Source: Bryobacteraceae bacterium (GTDB taxonomy: Bacteria > Acidobacteriota > Terriglobia > Bryobacterales > Bryobacteraceae). Taken from it: a DNA stretch of 41,645 nt. The stretch spans positions 1 to 41,645 of the forward strand of contig JAICXK010000013.1 in assembly GCA_025980435.1 (NCBI GenBank). The letters run 5' to 3'. A model generated the notes under the pieces. That model was not told the origin of the DNA. It saw only the letters and a program-made list of their open reading frames with translations, and did no database searches. The number at the start of each line of letters is the position of its first letter. Position 1 is the stretch's first letter. This document shows positions 12,268 through 41,645 of the stretch, piece after piece. Made by a program: the position numbers and the translations under genes.

Positions 12268-13290
12268 TTACGACGTCACCGCGACATCCAGACCCCAGGT
12301 AGTATTGGTCGGCTGAGGACCACCCACGGCGAACACGTTGCCGGAGGCGGTGGTATTCCAGCCGGAAGCCCCAACAAGGCCGGTTGTTCCGCTGAGAACG
12401 ATCATGCCGGCCGGGCTGGTGCCTGTGGTGATTGCCATGGCGTGCGTGAGGGCGGTTGATCCGCTCGAAACCGCATTGATGAAAACGCAATCGTCGAAGC
12501 GGTTCACGCGGTCCATCGCCGTCGCTCCCGATCGCAGGAACAGGCAGGCCGTCGCGCTGGAGGTATCCAGCATGATCTGGCACTTGCGGAACGTGTTGCG
12601 CGTGCAGCCGGTCCCGGCGTTGTTCGAAAACAGAATGACCGAATTGCTGGTGCCCGCCCCAAGCTGTACCGTGTCCTGGCCGATCACGCAATCTTCGATC
12701 AGGTTTTCCTGCGCCCCGTTGAGTTGGAGCGAGTAGGAGCCGCTGATATCGTTCGCGGCGTTGCCCATACCGGCGATCTGGCACTTCGACAGGTGATTGC
12801 GCTGGCCCGAGATCGACATGCAGCCGATGGGGTTGACCGAAGCCACGCCCATGAAAAACTCGATGTTGGCGATCAGGCAGCCATTGGCTGAGAGCGTGAA
12901 GAGGTTCCCGGCGCCGGTGAAAGCGGAATCGAACGCAATGCGCGAGCGTTGCCCGAACTGCGAACCGGCATTGACGCCGATCAGGTGAACGAGATCCTTG
13001 TTCCAGTTCAGCGTCTGGGTCTGGTAATCGGTGGTGTTCGCCGCGGTGTTCGAAGTGGCGCAGAGGAAAATGATGTCATTCTGGCCCGCCGTAGCCAGCG
13101 CCAAAGCCCGCGCGAGCGTCTGGAGGGGCGCATTCCGGCTCCCGTCGTTTGCCACGTCATTGCCGAATTCCGGATTGACGAAGTAGATGTTGCCCTGGCT
13201 TGGGAAGATCGAAGCCGCGAGAGTGTTGATTGTTGCCAGCGTGGAGAGCTGGAGACTGCCGCCGTTTGCCTGTGTCTGAAGACCGCTCAT
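12268..13290 (-). CDS. Right-handed beta-helix protein
   Basis: 340-residue protein. After a short N-terminal region (LSTLATINTLAASIFPSQGN) and a GNDVANDGSRNAPLQTLARA segment like the start of many phage beta-helix proteins, it shows regular turns of the pectate-lyase type with Asn/Cys ladders (GQRNHLSKCQIAGMGNAAND; NTFRKCQIMLDTSSATACLF; NRFDDCVFINAV). No signal peptide. It lies between TerL and portal, far from the tail genes, and so is more likely a capsid decoration or cell-surface-binding protein than the main tailspike. Catalytic residues cannot be assigned. Confidence 0.8.
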   Translation of the reverse strand: MSGLQTQANGGSLQLSTLATINTLAASIFPSQGNIYFVNPEFGNDVANDGSRNAPLQTLARALALATAGQNDIIFLCATSNTAANTTDYQTQTLNWNKDLVHLIGVNAGSQFGQRSRIAFDSAFTGAGNLFTLSANGCLIANIEFFMGVASVNPIGCMSISGQRNHLSKCQIAGMGNAANDISGSYSLQLNGAQENLIEDCVIGQDTVQLGAGTSNSVILFSNNAGTGCTRNTFRKCQIMLDTSSATACLFLRSGATAMDRVNRFDDCVFINAVSSGSTALTHAMAITTGTSPAGMIVLSGTTGLVGASGWNTTASGNVFAVGGPQPTNTTWGLDVAVTS

Positions 13291-29808: not shown

Positions 29809-30009
29809 TCACTGAAACCTCCGCGATACCGCCAGCGGAACATCTGCGCCGTCAAGAAACCGAACGGTTTCGCCGCGCCCCTTGGTCCATACCCACTCCG
29901 AATCGCAACCATCGCAACGATAATGAGTCGCTGGCGTGGACGGATGCGGATACCGCACGATAGGGCACGCCTCCGATTCCATCTCGGTCCTGCAATTTGG
30001 GCACGTCAT
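29809..30009 (-). CDS. Zinc-ribbon protein, 66 aa
   Basis: CPNCRTEMESEACPIVRYPH followed by YRCDGCDSEWVWTKGRG gives a clear CxxC...CxxC zinc ribbon. The tail is basic and hydrophobic. The ATG overlaps the stop of the preceding signal-peptide protein. Function unknown. Confidence 0.6.
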   Translation of the reverse strand: MTCPNCRTEMESEACPIVRYPHPSTPATHYRCDGCDSEWVWTKGRGETVRFLDGADVPLAVSRRFQ

Positions 30010-30203
30010 TTGCCGGTCTTCTTTTTCTTCATCCGCGCCACTTCCGATTTGAGCGTCTTCGCGAATTTCTTCGGGTGCAGCACATGCGGCACGACGTTAC
30101 TCGCGATGGTCGATGCTGCGGCAAGCTGCTGGATCGATACCGTGACCGCCCCGATGGGTTGCCAGAATCCGAAGATCGCGACAAACAGAAGAGTGCGGCG
30201 CAT
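30006..30203 (-). CDS. Small exported protein, 65 aa
   Basis: Starts MRRTLLFVAIFGFWQPIGAV, a Sec-type signal peptide (basic n-region, hydrophobic core, small residues at GA). The mature part has a helix (SIQQLAAASTIASNVVPHVL) and a Lys-rich C-terminus (MKKKKTGK). A GTG three codons earlier is also in frame. Placed directly after the lysozyme, it could be a spanin-like or periplasmic lysis protein, but lacks the usual coiled coil and lipobox. Confidence 0.5.
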   Translation of the reverse strand: MRRTLLFVAIFGFWQPIGAVTVSIQQLAAASTIASNVVPHVLHPKKFAKTLKSEVARMKKKKTGK

Positions 30204-30216
30204 TACGGTCACGATA

Positions 30217-30672
30217 TCACGAAACTGGCTGAAGAAACAGCGCTTGCTCGGCCATGCGGCGCTTCAGGAGACCCGCGCTTGCCTGCCCTGCGATGATGTC
30301 CCATTTCGGAAACTCTGCTGCTGCGATGGAATACGCCCCAGCATTCAGGGTTCGGAGCATCGTGGAGTTTCGCAGCCGTCCACTTCCTTCGTTGAAAGTA
30401 AAACTCGCCAAGGCATCAAACTGGTTCTGATTCAGCGGAACTTTCACCAGCGAATTGACCGGGGCTTCGCCAACTTCCGCGACGTCTTCAACCAGCCACG
30501 CATCGGCCTGTTCCTGAGTGCAAACATCCCCCTCTTTGACGCCGCGCGTGTGGCCCCAGCCAATAGTCCATATTCCGTTGCCGTCCTGATAAGCCTGAAG
30601 CTTGCAACCTTCGCAACTTTTGATGAGGGCTATACCGTTCGGGCTGGTGGTCACGATTGCAGAAACTCCCAT
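30217..30672 (-). CDS. Endolysin, T4/P22-type lysozyme (GH24)
   Basis: 151-residue muramidase. The catalytic region IKSCEGCKLQAYQDGNGIWT then IGWGHT has Glu21 as the likely acid and the conserved Asp/Thr part (ExxxLxAYxDxxGxxTIGxGHT). The C-terminal half (LNQNQFDALASFTFNEGSGR; LLKRRMAEQALFLQ) matches the family end. No signal peptide, so a holin should release it. The start overlaps the preceding exonuclease gene. Confidence 0.88.
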   Translation of the reverse strand: MGVSAIVTTSPNGIALIKSCEGCKLQAYQDGNGIWTIGWGHTRGVKEGDVCTQEQADAWLVEDVAEVGEAPVNSLVKVPLNQNQFDALASFTFNEGSGRLRNSTMLRTLNAGAYSIAAAEFPKWDIIAGQASAGLLKRRMAEQALFLQPVS

Positions 30673-31175
30673 GCGATCTTATTCCACCGGGCATCAGCAA
30701 GTGCGTTGTGTTCGCCCTTGCCCTGTTCCGGCAACTTCGGATTTCCCTTATCATCGCAGAGTTGCTTGATGTCGCGGCAGTACATCGGAAACCCCTTCGG
30801 GAGATCCATCATCGTGCCGAAAATCTGACAGAACACAACCCAGTCGTAGGCGGCGTAGTAGCCCCAGAATTCCGGCTTTTTAAGCAAGTACTCTTCCCGT
30901 TGAGACGGGCTCAGGTCATTTGGATTGACAGAGGAGTACGGATTAATGAACTCCTTGATGTCTTTCGCGATACGCCCGATAGATACCTTTCCGCCGGGTG
31001 CTTCAAGGTTGGCCAGAACATTATCCTTGACCCAATCGCTGGCATGGGAAGCATCGTACTCGCAACTGACGGCGTAGAATTCCCTGCCATCCCCGGATAC
31101 TATTCCGATGCTTATCAATTCAATCGGGCGCGCTGGTCCGCTCTCAATGAATTCCGTATCGATAAAATATCTCAC
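30651..31175 (-). CDS. DEDD-type 3'-5' exoribonuclease (Rv2179c-like)
   Basis: 174-residue protein with MRYFIDTEFIESG (first acidic pair, D6/E8), GYYAAYDWVVFCQIFG (middle Asp) and HNALADARWNK (HxxxxD end motif). This matches small RNase T-like exoribonucleases such as Rv2179c, found in mycobacteria and some phages. It probably trims or degrades RNA. It sits in the lysis region rather than with the early genes. It overlaps the lysozyme start and the previous gene. Confidence 0.8.
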   Translation of the reverse strand: MRYFIDTEFIESGPARPIELISIGIVSGDGREFYAVSCEYDASHASDWVKDNVLANLEAPGGKVSIGRIAKDIKEFINPYSSVNPNDLSPSQREEYLLKKPEFWGYYAAYDWVVFCQIFGTMMDLPKGFPMYCRDIKQLCDDKGNPKLPEQGKGEHNALADARWNKIAWEFLQS

Positions 31176-31478: not shown

Positions 31479-31613
31479 TTAACCCCGCGAGAGAAACTGA
31501 ATCGCGGCCCAAATGATGACCCCGCAAAGGATCATATAGAGTGCGAAATGCCCCGTCTGCTTTCCGATGGCCCGGCGTCTTTCTCTTCTCACGTCTGCGG
31601 GAGAGTGGATCAT
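31479..31613 (-). CDS. Single-TM micro-protein, 44 aa
   Basis: Starts MIHSPADVRRERRRAIGKQ, a very basic soluble N-terminus, followed by one hydrophobic helix (HFALYMILCGVIIWAAIQFL). The ATG overlaps the glycosidase stop. Size and N-in topology fit a pinholin-like or accessory lysis protein, but only by shape. Confidence 0.5.
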   Translation of the reverse strand: MIHSPADVRRERRRAIGKQTGHFALYMILCGVIIWAAIQFLSRG

Positions 31614-33622
31614 TGAACGCCCTGCTGCGTGCTTGGCACTACCGGGCCATAATTGATGACCGTTCCATGCTGCGTCTGTGTTGCGCCATTCAGGAAGAAC
31701 CGCGTGGGAACGCCCAGCGCAGAGAACACGCCTCCACTTAGCCCGCACTGCACATAGAATCCGCCATTGTCTCCACCGGCCGCCGTGAAATACAGGCGGT
31801 ACCCAGTGATGGGGCTATAAGTCATATATGGAGATTCGTAGTTACCCGACAGGATAAGGGTTGCGCCACTGTATGGACCCCCAATGGCTGATGCCGACAT
31901 GTAGTTCAGCGACGTATTGGCAATCGCATAGAAAAGGTAGTACGTGCTGCCGACCTTGAAGATCATCCCGTCATAGCACTGTGATGAGTAGGGGCAGATG
32001 ATTGTCGCTGCCGACCAGGAAGACAGATTAGAAAGCGATGCTGACAAAAGGGAGACTCCGTAGCTCGATACCGGAGTGCTCACAGTCATGTAGAGGGTCG
32101 TTGGGGCCGATGGGTCCCAGAAGAACGTCGGCGCGTAAGCGGGCTGCGATGCAATGACCGGAACGTGTGCGAGAAATGCCAGATTGCTCAGGGATGTTCC
32201 GGTATAGAGCGTGACCGTTGATATGTTACTAGTGGTGTTGTCGTTGTAGACCATCGCCACGGTACCGCCCACGTTGACGACGGACGGATCGCGGACCCCG
32301 GTAATGGTCGGGACGGTCTGCGAATACGCACTCCAGTTGATGCCGTCCACGGATTGCGTGACCTCAAAGGATTGTGTGACGGCAGGGAATGTGGATTCCA
32401 AATAGAACTCGGTCTTTGGCCCTGATGTGCTATTCAGTTGCAGGGGCTGCGAGAGCGTAGTACTCGTATCGGCGATTGTTGCTGCGCCACCAGTAGCCCC
32501 AATGGTCAGGGTAGCCGTGGCTGACGTATTTGTGGTGACGGTCGGGGTTCCGAGCGAAGCGCCGGTACTCCCCGAGATCGAGAACAGGCCCGCCGCCGTT
32601 TCGGATGACCAAATCGTATTAGTTCCGGTGAAAGTGACCGTCGTTGACGTGGTGGTATTGGGAACCCCGAGCGTAATCGAGAACCCCGGCGCGGCCACCG
32701 TGATGGGAACGCTGTTCACGCCGTCGCTGATAGTCAGAGAACCGACCCCTCCACCCGTCGTGATTACCAACGTTGCCGCAGTCGTGGATGACACATTCTG
32801 CGATACTTTCGTCACCCCGGTTACGCCGGTAGCAGTGAACGTAGTCAAACCGGTCCATGCAGTTCCGAAACCGGTAAGCGTCAATGTAATATTCCCTGCA
32901 TGGCTTGATGGAATCAGGGACGGAGAGACGGAAAGCGGTGGCGGGGCATATTTCAACGCGACTATCGCAGCGGCCCAGGATGATGCTGTTGTGGCCGTTG
33001 TCCATCCCGTTGAATACGAACCAGAAGAACCCACCACCTCATAGGCAACAGCATTCGTGGAGTTTGGGCTGGTGATCGCGGAAAACGAATTGATCGGCCC
33101 AGCCGTGATGTTTCTTCGCCCGATGCTTGCGGCGAATATGATATCGTTGGCAACGCTGGCCGCAACGCTGCCGGTTGTGATTGTCGTCGAAGAGGTGCTG
33201 AAATTTCCATTCACGGCATCCGCTGTGCATCCGCCAGTACCGGAGAATTCGGCGACGGTTGCATTGAGGGTCGCATAGCCGGCGGTCGTATCGTCCACCT
33301 CGATGCTGTTAGCGCCTCCGCTGTTTACAACTCCGCACCAGATCTCTGAATCCGAGACACTACCCGTATTGTTCGCGCGAGTCAGGAATGAAAATGTAAC
33401 CCCACTTGCAACTATTCCGGTTATAACTTCCCCAGCCGATGGACCCCAGATCGCAGCCGAAATCAATAGCACATTGCCGGTCGTATAGTTGTTTCCGAGA
33501 GTAACCACCACGCTGCCAGCGCCTGATCCATCCTTTGCATTGCCGCTCTGAACCAGCGTCGGAGCCGCGCAAAACGACAAGATAGGGAACAGAAGGCCGA
33601 GGACGATGTTTCTTAATTGCAC
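31610..33622 (-). CDS. Exported multidomain protein with GH43-like beta-propeller
   Basis: 670-residue GTG-started protein. Signal peptide MQLRNIVLGLLFPILSFCA. Residues ~25-225 form a beta-rich N-terminal domain; ~228-395 two Ig-like (IPT/TIG-type) repeats, starting LSVSPSLIPSSHAGNITLTL. Residues ~405-660 look like a five-bladed glycosidase propeller: RDPSV (D445), YAPTFFWDP (~497-503), YDGMIFKVGSTYYLFYA (D551), NYESPYM (E597) and QHGTV (His652), matching acid/base positions of GH43-type enzymes. Probably cuts a host polysaccharide. Substrate unknown. Confidence 0.7.
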   Translation of the reverse strand: MQLRNIVLGLLFPILSFCAAPTLVQSGNAKDGSGAGSVVVTLGNNYTTGNVLLISAAIWGPSAGEVITGIVASGVTFSFLTRANNTGSVSDSEIWCGVVNSGGANSIEVDDTTAGYATLNATVAEFSGTGGCTADAVNGNFSTSSTTITTGSVAASVANDIIFAASIGRRNITAGPINSFSAITSPNSTNAVAYEVVGSSGSYSTGWTTATTASSWAAAIVALKYAPPPLSVSPSLIPSSHAGNITLTLTGFGTAWTGLTTFTATGVTGVTKVSQNVSSTTAATLVITTGGGVGSLTISDGVNSVPITVAAPGFSITLGVPNTTTSTTVTFTGTNTIWSSETAAGLFSISGSTGASLGTPTVTTNTSATATLTIGATGGAATIADTSTTLSQPLQLNSTSGPKTEFYLESTFPAVTQSFEVTQSVDGINWSAYSQTVPTITGVRDPSVVNVGGTVAMVYNDNTTSNISTVTLYTGTSLSNLAFLAHVPVIASQPAYAPTFFWDPSAPTTLYMTVSTPVSSYGVSLLSASLSNLSSWSAATIICPYSSQCYDGMIFKVGSTYYLFYAIANTSLNYMSASAIGGPYSGATLILSGNYESPYMTYSPITGYRLYFTAAGGDNGGFYVQCGLSGGVFSALGVPTRFFLNGATQTQHGTVINYGPVVPSTQQGVQ

Positions 33623-34170
33623 GTGAGCGTCCCTGTAACAGTGGAGACCGATCCGCTGACGGCGGTTACGGCCATTACGATCATGTCTCCCGCCGATACC
33701 GTCGTTGTCGTGAAATCACTTAGCGTTGTCGATGCGACCGCTGTGCCGGTCGCGATAGATACGCCGCTCGTGTTGATGGAGTTCGCGGAAGTGGGAACCG
33801 CCGTCCCTGTTGCAATTTTCCAGAATTTCACTGTTGCCGTGCCTGAATCGCCGGATAAAAACGCCAGCGACCAGCCCGCGATTGTGCATGAGCGCACGGC
33901 CCGTATTGTTGCAGAAATCGAAGCCGTTGTTATGGTGGCATTCTGACCACCCGCCACAAGCGTAATTCCCTGAATTCCGGCAGGTCCGGTTGGCCCAACG
34001 GCCCCGGTAGCGCCAGTCGGCCCCGTAGCGCCAGTAGGTCCGCTGGCCCCGGCCGCTCCGGAAGCACCCGGCAATCCAACAGGAGAGGGCCGCTGGGCCT
34101 GTAACTGCCAGGCCGTGAAGCATATCCCCAGCACCACAACCGCGATTGAGAACTTCTCTATGCGGCGCAT
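33613..34170 (-). CDS. Exported collagen-like protein
   Basis: 185-residue protein with signal peptide (RRIEKFSIAVVVLGICFTAW ... LQAQ), then 12 Gly-X-Y triplets at residues ~32-67 (GLPGASGAAGASGPTGATG ...), then a beta-rich C-terminal domain (residues 68-185) that could trimerise (TAVASTTLSDFTTTTVSAGD). Collagen-like fibres occur in many phage tails, but not usually behind a signal peptide. The TAA overlaps the previous and next genes. Function unknown; an extended spacer is likely. Confidence 0.75.
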   Translation of the reverse strand: MRRIEKFSIAVVVLGICFTAWQLQAQRPSPVGLPGASGAAGASGPTGATGPTGATGAVGPTGPAGIQGITLVAGGQNATITTASISATIRAVRSCTIAGWSLAFLSGDSGTATVKFWKIATGTAVPTSANSINTSGVSIATGTAVASTTLSDFTTTTVSAGDMIVMAVTAVSGSVSTVTGTLTCN

Positions 34171-34679
34171 TAGTGCTGCTCCACCGGGTAAAACGAAATA
34201 TTGACTGTGCCGGTAATCGATCCAATTGAGATGTGCAGGTTTGAGGTTGTCCCGCTGGTCGAAAGATTAAACTGACTGAGGTCAATCGGGTAATCCTGCC
34301 CCGCTCCGATGTTGATCACCCGCAGAGTGGTGCAGGAAGAGGCATTGGAGGCCGTCCAGAACGTCACCGACGCTGCTGGCACGTTGGGAACGATGCTGAC
34401 CACCGAACCCGCCGTGGCGCTCGCCGGGGTGGTGCAGTTGCGGGAGATCGTGGCTACGCAAGCGACCGAACAATAGACGTCGGCTCCCACCGGAGGCATA
34501 CCGGGAGAGAGTGGGAAGCTGCCGGGGAAGGCGACTGGCGCCGCGTTCGTCGCCGGTTGCTGAAGGGTTGCTGCCGTACCGGCACCGGAAAGACTGACGT
34601 TGCCGGTGGTGGCGATGTAATTCACCGTCTGTTGTCCGAAGGCGGGCAGCGCGGCGAGGATGAGGAATAGCGTTTTCAT
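34170..34679 (-). CDS. Small secreted protein, 169 aa
   Basis: The start MKTLFLILAALPAFGQQ is chosen for AAGGAG 6 nt upstream; it is a clean Sec signal peptide (AFGQQ cleavage). The mature part is Ser/Thr/Val/Pro-rich and beta-rich (SLSGAGTAATLQQPATNAAP; CSVACVATISRNCTTPASAT) with Cys pairs. No enzymatic motif. Located between the tailspike and the collagen-like gene. Perhaps a baseplate or surface-adhesion domain. Confidence 0.65.
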   Translation of the reverse strand: MKTLFLILAALPAFGQQTVNYIATTGNVSLSGAGTAATLQQPATNAAPVAFPGSFPLSPGMPPVGADVYCSVACVATISRNCTTPASATAGSVVSIVPNVPAASVTFWTASNASSCTTLRVINIGAGQDYPIDLSQFNLSTSGTTSNLHISIGSITGTVNISFYPVEQH

Positions 34680-34743
34680 TGGTGCTCCTTTGGCTCGGGT
34701 GGACATTGATTCTCTCTCAGAAGGAATGGATTCAGGTTCAGTT

Positions 34744-34929
34744 CTATTGCGGGGGAGTAGGCATTATCTCGGCGTGATCGTGGCCGCGTTCTGCTGGCTT
34801 GCCACTGCTGCCGCCAATGCCTGTTGTGCGGGCCGCCACGCTCGCTGGCGCATGGCGCAGGAGGGCCTGACTGACGAGTTGATTGACGACCATTGTAGCC
34901 GTAAGTGCTGTACTTGCTGAAGGTGTCAT
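34744..34929 (-). CDS. Possible small ORF, 61 aa
   Basis: Ala/Thr/Pro-rich ORF (MTPSASTALTATMVVNQLVS ...) between the tailspike and the secreted protein, with a weak GAGAG RBS. It partly fills a gap of about 270 bp. It could be a shadow of a non-coding spacer. No family recognised. Confidence 0.35.
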   Translation of the reverse strand: MTPSASTALTATMVVNQLVSQALLRHAPASVAARTTGIGGSSGKPAERGHDHAEIMPTPPQ

Positions 34930-34952
34930 TTATTCTCTCAGGAGAAATAGAT

Positions 34953-37268
34953 TCAGTTTACAATCCAGTAATTAAAGCACCCAGGGTTGGTGACGAAGGC
35001 GCTCGGCACCTCAATTTCAAATAAAACAGCGCCAGAAGTGGCTCGTCCAAAAATAACTGGAGCTTCTGGTGTTGTGTTGCATGTGACGCTCAACAGAGTT
35101 CCAGTCAAGACAGAGGTGTCCTGTTGAACAAAAATCTCACTGCCAGAATGAACTGCTGTCGTGAGTACGCCGCCAATAGTCTGACCGGCTGTTAGGATAA
35201 ATGTCCCGGCTGCTGCCGCCCCACATTGAGCGAAGCCTCCAGACACAACTCCTGTAATGCAGTTTGGGCTTGTGGCGTAGCTTGTAAATGTAGCAGATGG
35301 ACTCGATGAAGATGTCCATTGTGGAACCACAACAGTTGGAGTTCCAGTGACTGATCCAAATCCACTGGAATTGATCGCTACCGTAAAGGTCGTTCCGCCT
35401 GTATTCGTCACCGACTGGACGCCGTTCAATGCGGCCCATGTGCCCGTATAGCCAGCGATATATGCCTTCCCTGTTGAGGGAGCGGAACTTGTTGTTAGCG
35501 TCGTGGTGGCTCCGCCAGTGGTCACGGTTATCGATTGCGGCGTTCCGCTGACACAGTACTGAATTGTCGAAGACTGACTTGATCCGGTGGGGATGAAGGC
35601 AATTTCTCCGGGGTATGTGCAGGCTCCGGTTGGGTTGCTTGGGTATATTGTCAGCGGGATCTGGCCGTAAGTCGTGGATATCCAGAACGAGGGCGTTCCT
35701 GACGGGTCTTGGCCTGTTCCGTATCCAATCGCGGACTGCGCCGACGGAGGATGATAACTGGAGCATGAGGCAGCCGGGGGCGCAATTGTAACCTGCGAGA
35801 TATCGGTAAATTGCATGGATGTCAGATCCCCACAAAACACAGAGTATCCGTTGAATGCTGCGGAAGACTCTTCCAGATCGCCGAGCGGCCCCCAGTTACC
35901 ACCAGCCACAAGAGCATTGTCGGCTGCATCACCAAGGGAGACTGCAGGACCGCCGTCTCCTTCATACATTCCGCCAGTGTGGATATGTACCGAGCCATGC
36001 CACAGTTCCCCCCCGAGGGCGTTAGAGGTCGATGAGTGGTTATCGAACCGAATGCCGTTCTCATCACTGCCGGGGATCACATGAAAACCCCAGCCCCCGT
36101 TTTGACCTGTTGCCAGGTATTGAATTCTCATGAGATTATTGCTTCCGCTTAGAACAGCGGTCGTGTGCGTGTGGAGGATTGTACCGCTGACGGTTATGAC
36201 ATTACCGGACACGTTGCTGATTGGAAATTGTTCCGGGTTGGACCCGAAAGGATCAAGAGCGATTCCAGAGCACGGACCACTGCTGGCATAGTTGCAGATT
36301 CCGTTGTTGGTGATCGATCCAACGGTAATCGAATTAGAGGTCTGCGAGATTATGTTAGTGGATGGGCCGCCATACTGATTAAGAACCATCCCATCGCCCG
36401 CATGGCGAACTGAAGTTAGACGACTCCATGTTCCCTGCAATCCGAGGACACTGACGATTCCGTTAGTCGATGCTTTATTATTGCCGTCAAATGTAATTCC
36501 GTTGAGGGTTGCGTTTTCTGCGTAAATCGTCAGCAGTTGCGTGGGCGGGTTGGCTGCATACGCAACCAGGCCTCCTCCTCCCGCATTAAATCCTCCCGAC
36601 TGATTTGCCGTTATTGTGATTCCAGCATTCGCCGGATAGAGAAACAGGCCCGGCGCGGAAACGGCACAATTTTGATTATTTGGGAAATTCAGCGTTCCGC
36701 CGACTACGGCATCTATCGCTGCCTGTATCTTCGCCCTGTCGTCGGTAGTTCCGTCGCAAACCGCGCCGAAGTCGAGCACGTTGTAGGTTTGCCGCAACTT
36801 TGCCTGCACCGTCTCGGCAACTGCTCCAGTTCCCGATTGAAGGAATCCGACATGCGAAGATCCCGCCGAGCTGGCGAGAAGCGTTGCGAGGTTTGCTGCC
36901 GCAATGGCCGGATTGCAGACGTTATCCTGACTCCAGACCGTGACTGCGCCCGCATCCTTCAGGATGATTTTGTAGCAGACCGAACCCGAGGTCCAGATAC
37001 CCGTAATCGCGCCGGAGTTGCTAATAGCGTATCCCGCCGAATTGGTCTTCACCGGGTTGGGGAGTTGCGTTCCGAGCGTCGAATCCGTGTAAGCGGCGAG
37101 CGGTGTTGTCGTTCCCGCCGCATAAGTGTAGATTGAACAGTTATTGCAGGATTTGGCCGCCCCATTGCGCCCGTCGATGATCTGGTAGGGCGTAACAGTC
37201 AAAGGGTACTGCGCAAAGCACTCAAGCGCGGAAATCAGGATTAAAAAGCACAGCCTCATTCTGTTCAT
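34953..37268 (-). CDS. Tailspike, pectate-lyase type, with signal peptide
   Basis: 771-residue protein after the ejection genes, the place of P22 gp9. An N-terminal signal peptide (MNRMRLCFLILISALECFAQ) precedes a head/tail-attachment-like domain at ~21-118 (IYTYAAGTTTPLAAYTDSTL; GSVCYKIILKDAGAVTVWSQ). Then comes a right-handed beta-helix of the Pectate_lyase_3 type from ~162 (VLDFGAVCDGTTDDRAKIQA) to ~500, and a separate C-terminal domain. The ATG has AAGGA 8 nt upstream, so the signal peptide is likely translated. Probable host-surface polysaccharide depolymerase. Confidence 0.8.
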   Translation of the reverse strand: MNRMRLCFLILISALECFAQYPLTVTPYQIIDGRNGAAKSCNNCSIYTYAAGTTTPLAAYTDSTLGTQLPNPVKTNSAGYAISNSGAITGIWTSGSVCYKIILKDAGAVTVWSQDNVCNPAIAAANLATLLASSAGSSHVGFLQSGTGAVAETVQAKLRQTYNVLDFGAVCDGTTDDRAKIQAAIDAVVGGTLNFPNNQNCAVSAPGLFLYPANAGITITANQSGGFNAGGGGLVAYAANPPTQLLTIYAENATLNGITFDGNNKASTNGIVSVLGLQGTWSRLTSVRHAGDGMVLNQYGGPSTNIISQTSNSITVGSITNNGICNYASSGPCSGIALDPFGSNPEQFPISNVSGNVITVSGTILHTHTTAVLSGSNNLMRIQYLATGQNGGWGFHVIPGSDENGIRFDNHSSTSNALGGELWHGSVHIHTGGMYEGDGGPAVSLGDAADNALVAGGNWGPLGDLEESSAAFNGYSVFCGDLTSMQFTDISQVTIAPPAASCSSYHPPSAQSAIGYGTGQDPSGTPSFWISTTYGQIPLTIYPSNPTGACTYPGEIAFIPTGSSQSSTIQYCVSGTPQSITVTTGGATTTLTTSSAPSTGKAYIAGYTGTWAALNGVQSVTNTGGTTFTVAINSSGFGSVTGTPTVVVPQWTSSSSPSATFTSYATSPNCITGVVSGGFAQCGAAAAGTFILTAGQTIGGVLTTAVHSGSEIFVQQDTSVLTGTLLSVTCNTTPEAPVIFGRATSGAVLFEIEVPSAFVTNPGCFNYWIVN

Positions 37269-38698
37269 TGTACGATTCCTTCCGCTTGCGGGGCGGTGAA
37301 AGATTGCCGCAATCTCTCCATCGCGGCGTGCATGGCCTGCACGTTCTCGGCGGCTTGCGCCTGTCGAATTGTCTCCACTACGGTTTCTTTGCTGACGGGG
37401 GTATTTAGTCCGATGGCATTCGCGAGTTTGTCCCAGTGCTCCTGTGCGATCCCCGGCATTTCATCCGACGTCACGCCGTGCTGCAGGAGGATATTGGTCA
37501 GTTTTTCGGCGCGGTTGGCGCGATGCGCGGCTTCGTAGGTGGCCCCAGCGAGTTCGGAGTCATCTACAGCACCACCCGCATAGGCCGCCTTGGCGATGGG
37601 AACCCGCGTTGCTGACGGGACCGAGCGCATGGTGTCCGCGAGCGCGGCGCGACCTTCCGGCGTGAGTTCTTCGGGAACAGGCGGCTGCAAGTGCTCCTGC
37701 GTGATGGTGCCGTTTTTCAGCATTTCATCGCGGAGTTGTTCGGCGATTGAGGGAGCTTCGCTGGATGGTGCCGCTGTGGCTGGTTGTGGGCTGCTGGCCG
37801 GAGTTTCTATTGGCTCCTGTGTTACCGGGGCTGCTGCCTTGGCGGTGGCGCGAACCGCTGCGGCCTGATCCGCCTCCCGAACACTCTGCGCCATCATCTG
37901 GATGACTTTCTGGCCCGCCCCCGGCGCGCTCTTGAAGCTGGAGTAACCTTGCCCCTTGGCGATATCGTCAAGCAATGGATCTGCTGCCTGTGTTTTCGCG
38001 GTTTCCACGGCCTGCGCTACCTTTTCTTCGGCGGGAGCATCCGAGGATAGCAGCGTTTTGGCGATGTTCGCCGCATAACGCGCACGCGGCGAAAACAGAC
38101 CCACAAGATCAGGCGCTATTTTCTGTAGGGCTGGGCTGTTCTTTACCAGATTGGAAATTCCCTGAATGGCCGCTCCAGTGACGTCGCCCACAACCGGGCC
38201 AGCAGCCCCGAGCGCAGCGGTATCGGCCACTTGTCCCGCCGTGCCACCCTGCGCCGCGCGGGTTGCGCCCGCAGCCGCCGCCTGAGCGCCGGAGCGGGCC
38301 AGCAACGAAGCACCCTTTGTGGCCGCTGCCGCATCCCCGCCGCCCACTAAATATTCCCCAGCGGATTCGATGAACTTCCCGACACGTGATGGAGTATTGT
38401 CCGGCGTGGCATCCGCTGCCGCCTTCTGGAGGTCGGAAAATTCTGGAAGATACTTATCCGCTCCAGGAATAGCGCGAGCGGTTTTGTAGAGGTTTACGGC
38501 ATCATGAACCGGACCGCCCAATTTATCCAGAAGGCCCATGACGGTCAAGGCGTGTTGCGCATAGGAACCGCCGACGCCAGCAAGGAAATCGCCGACCGTG
38601 GACCCGGTGGTGACGGGCTGCTGATCGTCCTGGCCGACCGGGACACCGCCAAACTGAGAGCCGGAATTTGCGGCTACACCGCCGAATTGGGAAGGCAT
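37265..38698 (-). CDS. Ejection protein, P22 gp16-like position
   Basis: 477-residue Ala-rich protein, third in the row gp7-gp20-gp16. The N-terminus (MPSQFGGVAANSGSQFGGVP) repeats SQFGGV, common in phage injection proteins; the middle has membrane-active-looking segments (ATKGASLLARSGAQAAAAGA; VVGDVTGAAIQGISNLVKNS) and the end is coiled coil (VVETIRQAQAAENVQAMHAA). It is likely injected with the DNA to form a channel across the envelope. Exact homology is by synteny. Confidence 0.65.
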   Translation of the reverse strand: MPSQFGGVAANSGSQFGGVPVGQDDQQPVTTGSTVGDFLAGVGGSYAQHALTVMGLLDKLGGPVHDAVNLYKTARAIPGADKYLPEFSDLQKAAADATPDNTPSRVGKFIESAGEYLVGGGDAAAATKGASLLARSGAQAAAAGATRAAQGGTAGQVADTAALGAAGPVVGDVTGAAIQGISNLVKNSPALQKIAPDLVGLFSPRARYAANIAKTLLSSDAPAEEKVAQAVETAKTQAADPLLDDIAKGQGYSSFKSAPGAGQKVIQMMAQSVREADQAAAVRATAKAAAPVTQEPIETPASSPQPATAAPSSEAPSIAEQLRDEMLKNGTITQEHLQPPVPEELTPEGRAALADTMRSVPSATRVPIAKAAYAGGAVDDSELAGATYEAAHRANRAEKLTNILLQHGVTSDEMPGIAQEHWDKLANAIGLNTPVSKETVVETIRQAQAAENVQAMHAAMERLRQSFTAPQAEGIVQ

Positions 38699-38700
38699 GG

Positions 38701-40341
38701 CTACGGCTTTCGGTACTGATTGCCGTCATCCTCCGTATAGAGTGTTCCCGAGGGTAGTGCGTCAAATTGGGCTTTACTGGTAACGTGCGGCATTCCGGCA
38801 ATCGGGGGCGGTGAAATCTTACTGATGTCCGCGCCGCGCATCTTCAGATTACTCAAGCCTGTCTGGTATGACCGTTGCGCCGCCTGTTGCTGAATTGAGG
38901 CAAGGGATGCGGTGTCGCGCAAAATATCGGCGGGTATGGGCTGGCCGGAAACGAGACCGTTTACCTTTCCCTCCAGACGATCGATGATGCTCCCGGCGTT
39001 TGAGGATACCGCCTGGAGCTCCTGGCGGTTAACCCGTCCATTCGATAACACGGATTGTACTTGCTCAATCGGAATGATAGCGGGGGCGGCTTTGTTGCCC
39101 TTCTGTGCCGCATTGATGGTTGAGAGCAGCGTTTGCGTCTTATTCAGCGCATCACTGTAATCTTTCTGTGTTTTCGCGGCATCGCTCATTACTTGATTTC
39201 GCTCGGAGGCATTGACGATGCCAGCGAAGGCATCGGGCGAGAGCGCCGCCAACCGCTGCTGGGTCTGCACTTGTTCATTCACGTGCGGGCCGATTTCGGC
39301 ATTCGCCTTGGCTGCGGCAGCCTGAGCTTCGACGGGAATCATCACCTTGGCTTCGTTGACCTTGCCAGCCGTTACGCCGGGAGAGAATGCCCGAAGTCTA
39401 TCCGCCACGTCTTTTACTGCGGCCTGCGCTTTGTCTGCTGCTGTCGTGGGATCGGAACTTTTGAGGGCAGCCTGATAGGCCGCTTCCCCCGCATCTGCCG
39501 CGTCCTGTGCTTCCTGCGGATGACCCGCGAAGATGGACATGCCCTTAACTTGCGCCGCGCGCGCCGCGGGATCGCCTTGACCCGCGCCTTTCATCAGGTT
39601 GAGCTTGTAGCTGGCCAGATCGGCGTTCGCCTGCGCTTCCGCGCCCTTTGCGGTTGATTCCGTGGCTGCCGCCTGCGCCTGAAGCGCCTTGGCATTTTCT
39701 CCCTTGCGGGCAAGCGCGGTATCGGTCAGCGCTCCAAGGCCGGCAACCCTGCCTTTGATGACATTCCAGTCGTCTTCGGTATGGATGGATTTGGCGACTT
39801 GCGCTGGGTCGATGCCGAGAATGCGGAGTTCGGGCGCGAGGGATTGAATGGCGTTCGGCAACTGCTCATTGATGCGGTCGAAGTCAGGGGTGCCATCTGC
39901 GGCCTTCATCTGGTCGAGAGAATCCACGGTTTTCGCTACGACGCCATGGGCATCCTGCTGGTTTTTCAGGGTAGAGGTGTCGAGCGTTGCCTTCTGCTCG
40001 ATTTGCTTGTTTACGTAGTCCTGAACGGCCTGAACTGTCTTGGGCTGCACAAGCCCCCCAAGGCGCTGGCCGATCTTCGCCGGGTCTCCGGAATGGATAT
40101 CGGCATAAGCTCCAGGGTCTTTTTCCAGCCCCTGAATGGTGTTCTGGTCCGCGAGGTCCCTGTTTTTCTGTTCCGCGAGCGCTGCATTCTCGGCTGCGAC
40201 CTGCGAAGCCTGCTGCGTCTGGGCGTTACGCAATGCGATCTGGCTCCCGAGATCACGGAGAGACATCAGCCCCGAGATGGAGGCGATGGGGTCGAGCGGC
40301 TTCGGGGTCTGGGTCGCGAGGGCGATGTTTGGATCAATCAT
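38701..40341 (-). CDS. Ejection protein, P22 gp20-like position
   Basis: 546-residue Ala/Gln-rich helical protein: LRDLGSQIALRNAQTQQASQ and VAAENAALAEQKNRDLADQN near the N-terminus, then long coiled coils (AQAAATESTAKGAEAQANAD; TLLSTINAAQKGNKAAPAI). Cys-free and of low complexity, typical of internal virion proteins that travel through the tail. Lies between the gp7- and gp16-like genes. Confidence 0.65.
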   Translation of the reverse strand: MIDPNIALATQTPKPLDPIASISGLMSLRDLGSQIALRNAQTQQASQVAAENAALAEQKNRDLADQNTIQGLEKDPGAYADIHSGDPAKIGQRLGGLVQPKTVQAVQDYVNKQIEQKATLDTSTLKNQQDAHGVVAKTVDSLDQMKAADGTPDFDRINEQLPNAIQSLAPELRILGIDPAQVAKSIHTEDDWNVIKGRVAGLGALTDTALARKGENAKALQAQAAATESTAKGAEAQANADLASYKLNLMKGAGQGDPAARAAQVKGMSIFAGHPQEAQDAADAGEAAYQAALKSSDPTTAADKAQAAVKDVADRLRAFSPGVTAGKVNEAKVMIPVEAQAAAAKANAEIGPHVNEQVQTQQRLAALSPDAFAGIVNASERNQVMSDAAKTQKDYSDALNKTQTLLSTINAAQKGNKAAPAIIPIEQVQSVLSNGRVNRQELQAVSSNAGSIIDRLEGKVNGLVSGQPIPADILRDTASLASIQQQAAQRSYQTGLSNLKMRGADISKISPPPIAGMPHVTSKAQFDALPSGTLYTEDDGNQYRKP

Positions 40342-40344
40342 GAT

Positions 40345-41145
40345 TTAGCCTGGCGGTGCATAGGTTGCAGCGGGCGGGATGTAATCAGGCGGGACATACC
40401 CAGCCGAAGGCGGCGTGGCATTGGTTCCGGTTCCGCTCCAGCCTACAGGGGTCGGCGGGGGTGCGTTCGTGCCGCCGAAGTACTGAGACAAAAGAAGCCC
40501 GTTCGCCGCCGAATTGGTGGCGCCGGAAATTCCCGCATTGATTGCATTGGCCGAACCCACTGTGCCCGCAGCTTGCGCATTACCGATTCCGGTCATCAGA
40601 TTCGCCACGTTTGCGGAAGTGCCCGAGGCAGCCGCGGAACCGAGGGCGGTTGGGGTATAAAGTTGCTGGTATTCCTGTGCCTGCTGCGCCAGTTGCGCCT
40701 GATAGCCGCTGAGCGCGTTGGCGAATTGGGTCTGGTAAGTGGTCTGGGCCAGATTGGTGTTGAAGAGATCCCCGGCCTTCAGGGTTCCGCCGGTGAATGC
40801 GCCGCCCGCCGCTGCCGCCTGCCGTGACAATCCAAGCTGCCCCTGCTGTTCCTCGAACTGATAGCCCGGCGTCTGCTCGGCTTGCGCTAGCGTCGGCGCG
40901 CTGAAGGAGGGGAGGGAGCCGGGTCCGAAAGTCCCGTTGGTGATGGCCTCCTGGAGAGCCGCAGCCGAGGTGTCTCCCAAGCTGAGAAATGGCGCTTCGG
41001 CCTGCTTGGTATAGTCGAGGGCATTGTCCGATGCCTGTACCTGTTCGCTTGCCGCTGTTTTGGAGGCGTTGGCGGAAATGGCAGCGCCGCCGAGGGCCCC
41101 CGCCGCGCTCAGGCCGCCAATAATCAGAGGAACCGCTACGGGCAT
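40345..41145 (-). CDS. DNA transfer protein, P22 gp7-like
   Basis: 266-residue protein. The N-terminus is a hydrophobic Gly/Ala helix (PLIIGGLSAAGALGGAAISA) followed by AANSKTAASEQVQASDNAL-type sequence and LSGYQAQLAQQAQEYQQL, TALGSAAASGTSANVANL, NAQAAGTVGSANAINAGI: the usual pattern of phage DNA-transfer proteins of the gp7 type. The C-terminus is Pro/Gly-rich. It probably inserts into the host membrane during DNA entry. Confidence 0.75.
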   Translation of the reverse strand: MPVAVPLIIGGLSAAGALGGAAISANASKTAASEQVQASDNALDYTKQAEAPFLSLGDTSAAALQEAITNGTFGPGSLPSFSAPTLAQAEQTPGYQFEEQQGQLGLSRQAAAAGGAFTGGTLKAGDLFNTNLAQTTYQTQFANALSGYQAQLAQQAQEYQQLYTPTALGSAAASGTSANVANLMTGIGNAQAAGTVGSANAINAGISGATNSAANGLLLSQYFGGTNAPPPTPVGWSGTGTNATPPSAGYVPPDYIPPAATYAPPG

Positions 41146-41618
41146 AATGCCTCCCTGCTAATACCAAACATGAGTTGATCGAAAAGCCTGCCACCCTTGA
41201 GGAAACTGGCGCGATTCAGACCGAAAAGCTCCATGCCGGAGCATCGGGCCAGTTTCGCAGCCAACCTGTTCTGAATTGGCACATTGGTCACAATCCTACG
41301 AAACGGTGTGTTTCCCCACACCCACTGAATTCCGGCCAATGTGGCCGGTACCGAATTTCCCCACAACTCCCGGCGAAAACAGGTGTGCACCTCGACTGTG
41401 GCAACGTTTTGCGGCATCAGCACGAAAACCCCGTCGATGCGTTCATTTTCTTCAACGGAAAGATAGATGACGGCTGGGTTTTCCGGGGGTCTGTATTCCG
41501 CAGCCGAAGGGCTCCCGTCGTCTGAGACGTGCCGGTAAACCTCCTCGGCGGTGATAATGCCACGGACCAGATCCATGTCGAAAGTGCGCGCCACGGTCAC
41601 GATGCCAACTCCAGACAT
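41136..41618 (-). CDS. P22 gp14-like GNAT-fold protein (DUF2824)
   Basis: 160-residue protein that spans the circular join. EVHTCFRRELWGNSVPATLA and IVTNVPIQNRLAAKLARCSG, ELFGLNRASFLKGGRLFDQL match the small GNAT-like DUF2824 proteins found in the gp14 position of P22-like phages, needed for assembly in P22 although its reaction is unknown. It has a GNAT-like strand and loop but no clear acetyl-CoA motif. The neighbouring 102-residue gene overlaps its start. Confidence 0.75.
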   Translation of the reverse strand: MSGVGIVTVARTFDMDLVRGIITAEEVYRHVSDDGSPSAAEYRPPENPAVIYLSVEENERIDGVFVLMPQNVATVEVHTCFRRELWGNSVPATLAGIQWVWGNTPFRRIVTNVPIQNRLAAKLARCSGMELFGLNRASFLKGGRLFDQLMFGISREALCP

Positions 41619-41645
41619 TCGAGCGGGATCAGGGACGCGGCGGCG
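41505..41645. repeat. Terminal direct repeat, right copy
   Basis: Exact copy of the first 141 bases. Joining the two copies makes the late block continuous: the gp14-like gene begins inside this copy and the next upstream gene lies at the left end of the window. A circularly permuted, headful-packaged genome of the P22 type would assemble this way; that part is inference. Confidence 0.9.

Follow-up and report, generated by a model that had tools for sequence, protein, structure and literature searches.

Predicted Sec signal peptides on the tailspike and neighboring late genes of a P22-like phage from a Terriglobia assembly

Four adjacent late genes of a P22-like phage contig begin with predicted Sec-type signal peptides behind plausible starts, and in one of them, the tailspike gene, a P22-type head-binding domain follows directly on the predicted cleavage site. 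The contig is from a Bryobacteraceae assembly, and we refer to the whole 41,645-nucleotide stretch that was analyzed as the window. The best reading, to which we give somewhat better than even prospects, is that the spikes are exported, cleaved, oxidized outside the inner membrane, and mounted at lysis on particles made in the cytoplasm. Export of the module proteins, taken by itself, is very probable from the sequences, and the late mounting of the spikes, as a separate claim, is modestly favored.

The contig most likely represents a complete phage genome of ~41.5 kb because its ends repeat at one offset (copies of the first 50 bases and of the last 30 are both found at the single offset of 41504, as with a 141-bp terminal repeat), and the genome is probably circular or terminally redundant. 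Assignment to a Terriglobia (Acidobacteriota) host comes from binning alone. The late module looks P22-like, with genes in the order terminase, portal, scaffold (a weak call, E 0.00086), coat, connector-type protein, head morphogenesis, DNA ejection, two cysteine-free genes, and spike. The place of the spike, behind the phrog_651 and phrog_598 genes and two cysteine-free genes without family match, is that of P22-type order, as ejection genes precede the spike in P22; cysteine-free genes also directly precede the spike in L130, L131, L134, L136, L137 and L138. The features of the window are as follows.

1-141 and 41505-41645: terminal direct repeat
41136..41618, minus strand: head morphogenesis gene (phrog_651), in a place like that of P22 gp14
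40345-41145, minus strand: DNA ejection gene (phrog_598), 0 Cys
38701-40341, minus strand: gene without family match, 0 Cys
37265..38698, minus strand: gene without family match, 0 Cys and no signal peptide, immediately ahead of the spike, where P22 has its last ejection gene
34953..37268, minus strand: tailspike gene, 771 aa, 18 Cys (PHROG tail fiber / tail spike families)
37212..37268, minus strand: tailspike residues 1-19, a predicted Sec signal peptide with cleavage between CFA and QYP (rule score 4.45; signal peptides also in relatives L137 and L139)
36894..37211, minus strand: head-binding domain of the tailspike, adjoining the signal peptide and of the P22 gp9 type (phmmer, profile, AF2, Foldseek)
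37137..37148, minus strand: CNNC motif inside the head-binding domain (from alignments; many relatives without signal peptide have LVGG or LSGG)
34170..34679, minus strand: small, putatively exported protein, corrected start with AGGAG before the ATG, mature part with 4 Cys (seven-member family)
34635-34679, minus strand: predicted signal peptide of the small protein, residues 1-15 (own rule; family of similar starts)
33613..34170, minus strand: collagen-like protein, 185 aa, with a predicted signal peptide of 25 residues at 34096-34170 (score 4.81; Pfam Collagen)
31610..33622, minus strand: 670-aa protein from GTG with a predicted signal peptide (score 4.22) and a possible GH130/GH43-like part (GH130 E 0.0085)

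Elsewhere in the window, a 340-aa late gene without family match (12268-13290, minus strand) resembles, by N-terminus, a 333-aa protein adjoining terminase in L003, and an RNase H-type gene (phrog_2259; 30651-31175, minus strand) adjoins the endolysin gene.

The four open reading frames are present as originally described, all on the minus strand (34953-37268, 34170-34706, 33613-34170 and 31610-33622). Signal peptides were called with a rule of our own that asks for a positive n-region, an uncharged hydrophobic stretch, and small residues at -3 and -1, and n-, h- and c-regions with a predicted cleavage site were found in each. The predicted signals are MNRMRLCFLILISALECFA before QYPLT in the tailspike (score 4.45), MKTLFLILAALPAFG before QQTVN in the small protein (3.71, or 3.91 if the outer start is used), MRRIEKFSIAVVVLGICFTAWQLQA before QRPSP in the collagen-like protein (4.81), and MQLRNIVLGLLFPILSFCAAPTLVQS before GNAKD in the 670-aa protein (4.22, with the site unsure). 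False-positive rates are low: at 3.5, the rule passes 161 of 10,800 shuffled whole proteins and, among 318 mechanical ORFs, four, and at 4.0 it passes 50 of the 10,800 and none of the 318; the original prediction of Sec signal peptides on all four genes is upheld. Five of 27 hand-picked late ORFs of the window pass 3.5, namely the four module genes and a 68-aa ORF, and without a threshold three more late ORFs give weak scores (2.1-2.95) from one or another of their starts. The 68-aa ORF (30006-30212, minus strand; MTVMRRTLLFVAIFGFWQPIGA, score 4.01) lies beside the endolysin gene, and its product may belong to the lysis cassette as a small envelope protein. The predicted starts are plausible, with ribosome-binding-site-like sequences preceding those of the spike and the small gene, but the latter has been moved: from 34706 to the inner ATG at 34679, which is most likely the start because AGGAG lies 5 nt upstream and the L185 relative has only the corresponding start.

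Several comparisons point to the head-binding domain. A phmmer search aligned spike residues 20-125 with tail spike chains in the phage tail structure 9vyg (E 1.1e-7), and the ‘tailspike head-binding domain’ of 7eeq is hit at E 1.2e-16 by a profile built from 39 relatives. An AF2 model of the domain has a mean pLDDT of 87.3 and a pTM of 0.79, and used as a Foldseek query it gave 203 matches with E of 10 or less, the top 23 being P22, Sf6, Pam1 and Pan3 entries; three of these 23 are chains of 7ukj with 619-622 residues, titled portal:gp7, that presumably are the spike chain. PHROG tail and tail spike matches fall within residues 122-271 and a match to the pectate-lyase-like Pfam family PF12708 is below cut-off, and a beta-helix-like body is suggested. 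A search with the first 308 residues of the spike found no second head-binding-domain gene on the contig, and one other match in the assembly, a pectate-lyase-like ORF (contig C184) in whose N-terminus the domain was not seen. Relatives of the whole tailspike or of the whole GH-like protein were not found by direct search of viral contigs, although domain-level and pattern searches did find spike relatives.

The small protein and its relatives share both a signal-peptide-like start and a cysteine pattern. A scan with the window and L137 copies gave six loci, two on known contigs, and all seven family members (among them L185 3001-3504 and L186-L189) have such a start, cut before Gln by eye, with rule scores from 3.0 (L189) to 5.06. 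With the cut so placed, the mature proteins have exactly four cysteines in seven of seven; two are invariant, and the second pair sits in one of three placements, always paired, a change that disulfides would predict. In L188, the gene lies directly behind a cysteine-free gene. L185, on the same contig as L139, has the same order as the window (spike, small protein, collagen-like protein), with signal-peptide scores of 4.17, 3.98 and 4.19, respectively, the signal-bearing collagen-like protein occupying the same place. The window copy of the latter has visible Gly-X-Y repeats and matches Pfam Collagen with E 4.5e-6 (26.8 bits, cut-off 27.2). The description of the 31610-33622 product as GH43-like is not borne out: there is only a match to GH130 (PF04041) with 15.5 bits and E 0.0085, under the curated cut-off of 26, and a sequence search of the PDB gave nothing significant (best E 0.22). 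The PHROG, Pfam and PDB searches revealed no head-binding domain in this protein.

Most spike relatives lack the signal peptide. A profile scan of viral contigs gave at least 600 candidate stretches and at least 473 relatives, the best 80 of which were kept as 80 loci, and the signal is absent in 77 of these; at 4.0, the rule fires on three (L060, L077 and L094), and without a threshold on four (L053 is the one dropped). The usual form is a protein that starts with the head-binding domain itself. The nine annotated genes that were translated from named phages (hosts Vibrio, Shewanella, Pseudoalteromonas, Rhodoferax, Xanthomonas and Thalassomonas; PAE2, with no gene annotated there, was left out) all start at the domain, without signal peptide or CxxC. 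BLAST matches of L135 in Vibrio and Shewanella phages extend into its signal region, but in the three checked this is alignment overrun, the annotated genes starting at the domain.

The signal peptide tends to occur together with the CxxC motif. A DNA pattern composed of CxxC and the following YTY...GT.TP motif, which is silent about signals, found 10 viral contigs (two already in the 80-locus scan), ten of ten with a signal-bearing spike, and one genome contig, from Candidatus Acidiferrales, whose protein (the same as L032) also has the signal. In the 80-locus scan, both CxxC proteins have a signal peptide. These are the fair statements of the association. Of 104 proteins compared, seven from named phages were set aside because our motif missed them, and were later found to have neither signal nor CxxC. 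In the 97 classified, CxxC is present in 12 of 17 with a signal peptide vs 0 of 80 without, a distribution for which Fisher's p of 9e-12 is not a fair statement because eight rows were chosen by CxxC. The motif is missing from five of the 17, and the median cysteine content of the whole protein is 1.88% with a signal and 0.36% without. On a tree of 89 domains, the signal needs four changes, or five with the CxxC columns masked, and a phylogeny-corrected test of signal and CxxC is without power because there are only two supported independent pairs. One sister pair on the tree (96/94) consists of L054, which starts MATGTVMPSPLF (MATGTVMPSP) and has LSGG and no signal, with no start further upstream adding one, and L132, which has CVAC and a signal ending in LHA before ATGTVTPAPVF; predicted cleavage of L132 would restore the N-terminus of L054. 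Gln follows the cut made by the rule in 11 of the 17 signal-bearing spikes, and in 14 of 17 with the cut placed by eye. The CxxC motif could bind a metal rather than form a disulfide; in L134 and L136, the cysteines in the aligned stretch number three, an odd count. We note that the signal-bearing CxxC spike of L135 (10910-12775, minus strand) lies in a stretch of 42% GC, vs 51–68% in the other signal-bearing loci measured, and its host may be outside Acidobacteriota.

Signal-bearing spikes are also found in Acidobacteriota genomes. A query containing the signal peptide matched 18 of 250 genomes of the class at E up to 0.01, twelve of them weakly (E 0.001-0.01); the six with E < 1e-9 (the window, L012, L031, L032, L033 and L034) all have the signal, and three weak matches that were looked at (L036, L038 and L049) contain no intact domain of the spike's kind. 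A query without the signal gave four matches in 396 genomes of the phylum: the window, G259 (L033) and G274 (L034), both with signals, and G514 (L144), from another class of the phylum, with a head-binding domain and no signal. The N-termini of L032 (genome G328, same class) and L140 (Candidatus Acidiferrales) are the same, in matching places, which puts the binned host in the class Terriglobia. Of 150 genomes of the order, 15 have a match, and on inspection several of these matches are ordinary host enzymes of the pectate-lyase-like kind. In a genome of the same genus (G115; L013, 1447 onward, plus strand), kept outside the counts of proteins with and without signals, the domain lies behind the predicted signal MRALALFLPACAVALA, cut before ENAAS, from any of three starts, and has LAGG in place of CxxC with a cysteine pair a few residues on (VYACAAGSRC). 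A genome of the same family encodes a signal-bearing spike-like protein (MKTAIFLVAAALTVASVRGQNTAK...; L016, 1111-2988, plus strand) with a beta-helix start and a different N-terminal region. The comparison of N-termini with those of relatives thus takes the pattern well beyond the window, as signal peptides persist in divergent relatives. Two VKOR and two DsbA matches in the host bin exceed the cut-off, which makes an oxidizing compartment likely. In 187 host ORFs, cysteine content is 0.77% in 30 signal-peptide proteins vs 1.43% in 157 others, and we therefore reject the idea that the module cysteines merely mirror host secreted proteins. Gln is at the predicted +1 position in nine of the 30 host signals (host contigs L146-L165), and is favored more strongly in those of the phages.

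The association extends from the spike to the module as a whole. Nine loci were chosen (the window, L130, L131, L134, L136, L137, L138, Tunturi_1 and Tunturi_2), with genes of both classes hand-picked and the CxxC contigs L132, L133, L135 and L139 left out as short, unclear or cut. At 4.0, the rule fires on 26 of 32 module genes vs 0 of 55 other late genes (22 of 26 vs 0 of 54 without the near-duplicate Tunturi_2), and median cysteine contents are 1.87% and 0%, respectively. The six misses are the small gene of the window, a 740-aa gene of L137, and the 675- and 113-aa genes of both Tunturi_1 and Tunturi_2. Tunturi_1 is a podovirus-like phage isolated on Tunturiibacter psychrotolerans X5P2, as given in the main text of its description (PMC11924767), and five of its 26 late genes tested have predicted signals: gp12 (score 4.53, 20 Cys), gp13 (3.68, 10 Cys), gp14 (5.6, 21 Cys; annotated ‘tail spike protein’), gp16 (4.21, 2 Cys) and gp17 (4.95, 32 Cys). 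The N-terminus of gp12 has no significant match to the head-binding profile (hhalign E 0.13), and no relatives of it were found in viral contigs. No signals were found in 24 chosen genes (of 61) of Tunturi_3, which infects the same host strain and has tail fibers without signal peptides, or in 21 chosen genes of Tunturi_4, all taken from the initial 50 kb of each genome. Export thus goes with phage lineage and is not a demand of the host, and is not needed for infecting such hosts; with L144 as a further case, we reject export as a demand of the host phylum.

In the favored reading, the proteins with which a P22-like phage of Terriglobia recognizes its host would be made for export. All four products of the module, the tailspike included, would be translated with cleavable Sec signal peptides and would cross the inner membrane, and removal of the signals is predicted to expose Gln at the N-terminus of three of them. 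Outside the cytoplasm, the module proteins would fold and form disulfide bonds. The proteins of the head, portal and tail hub and those for ejection, made without signals, would be assembled in the cytoplasm, and once lysis opens the inner membrane the finished spikes would dock via the head-binding domain onto the tail hub. Israel and colleagues are said to have found in 1967 that P22 base-plate parts join heads in vitro. Attachment to particles after lysis was among the possibilities originally raised, and it fits best because the P22-type head-binding domain is kept and a search with the first 308 spike residues gave no second such gene on the contig. The more specific proposal of assembly in two compartments, with heads and tail hubs made in the cytoplasm, the whole receptor-binding module sent by Sec to the periplasm for cleavage and disulfide locking, and the halves meeting only when the cell opens, has about an even chance of being right.

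It was also suggested that the proteins are released to digest surface glycans, which fits less well than late attachment and could apply chiefly to the GH-like protein, for which the searches made gave no head-binding domain. In its broader form, this explanation has the products exported without becoming part of the virion. The capsule or the surface of the infected cell would then be the target of free spikes and of the adhesin-like and glycosidase-like proteins, which might clear receptors, help release or block rivals. There is a cellular parallel in WceF, a host enzyme for which the passages of one report (PMC7949094) describe a tailspike-like fold, a Tat signal and action on exopolysaccharide. 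The window spike, however, keeps its P22-type head-binding domain and its place after ejection-type genes, and the contig search described above gave no second spike made without a signal; we regard the explanation as unlikely. A less probable alternative is that the hydrophobic N-terminus stays uncleaved and anchors the spike in the membrane or pins it to the particle. Our rule does not separate cleaved from uncleaved signals, but the frequent Gln after the cut (common in the host too), the match of L054 and L132 in register after cleavage, and the cysteines, which point to translocation, all argue against it. We give marginally less credence still to a dual fate, with part of the spike pool remaining cytoplasmic and built into particles and part exported for another task; this would fit the head-binding domain being kept together with a signal peptide, but the cysteine-rich make-up fits a single oxidizing place of folding. 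Finally, it is very improbable that the signals, rule-based calls though they are, reflect wrong starts, chance hydrophobic N-termini or, as also proposed originally, relics of host secreted-protein capture, because they persist in divergent relatives and a cultured phage, go with cysteines, follow ribosome-binding-site-like sequences at the spike and small gene, and are rarely matched by shuffled proteins.

The usual view is that tailed phages finish their particles inside the cytoplasm, and a spike module that must leave the cytoplasm first would represent a different assembly logic. If so, disulfide-stabilized spikes suited to harsh soils are possible, and free spikes could act on the cell before lysis. 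The reading is testable, as the Tunturi_1 isolate and its host strain exist, and a signal peptide with CxxC before the YTY motif of the head-binding domain would be an annotation marker for phages of the little-studied Acidobacteriota. The suggestion of an undescribed strategy stands as a candidate, as the signals look real and no description of signal peptides on tailspikes of tailed phages was found among the papers that the literature searches listed (titles and the starts of abstracts, with most subscription papers and all preprints outside them), a silence that is weak evidence of absence.

The closest known systems are alike in some respects and different in others. P22-type tailspikes share the head-binding domain, by sequence (Pam1 and Pan3) and by fold (P22 gp9, Sf6 gp14, Pam1 and Pan3), as well as the late order in which ejection-type genes precede the spike. 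The window spike differs in adding a predicted Sec signal peptide and CxxC: P22 and Sf6 spikes are not known to have a signal peptide, and in the cyanophage Pam1 and Pan3 spikes the match starts at chain residue 11 or 12, too early for a signal to precede it, whereas a signal is predicted for the window spike and 16 others of the 97 classified proteins. M13 pIII is a receptor-binding virion protein that is Sec-exported and disulfide-bonded outside the cytoplasm, but M13 is a filamentous phage extruded through the membrane, and the window phage is a tailed dsDNA phage with an endolysin gene. Tunturi_1 and Tunturi_2 share the run of signal-bearing late genes, mostly cysteine-rich and with a tail spike annotated in Tunturi_1, and differ in their 63-kb genomes and in the gp12 N-terminus, for which the match to the head-binding domain is at E 0.13; the main text of their description (PMC11924767) does not contain the term ‘signal peptide’. 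A few signal peptides are reported for Bacteroides phages, in passages that leave the genes unnamed (PMC5723332). Lys44 of fOg44 and the SAR endolysins are presented in passages of PMC6116005 as late phage proteins that use the Sec system; they share signal peptides and Sec use with the window proteins and are lysis enzymes, unlike the window spikes. WceF of Pantoea stewartii, described in the passages of PMC7949094 as a tailspike-like beta-helix trimer with a Tat export signal that acts on exopolysaccharide, shares an export signal with the window spike, but is a cellular enzyme and not a phage gene product.
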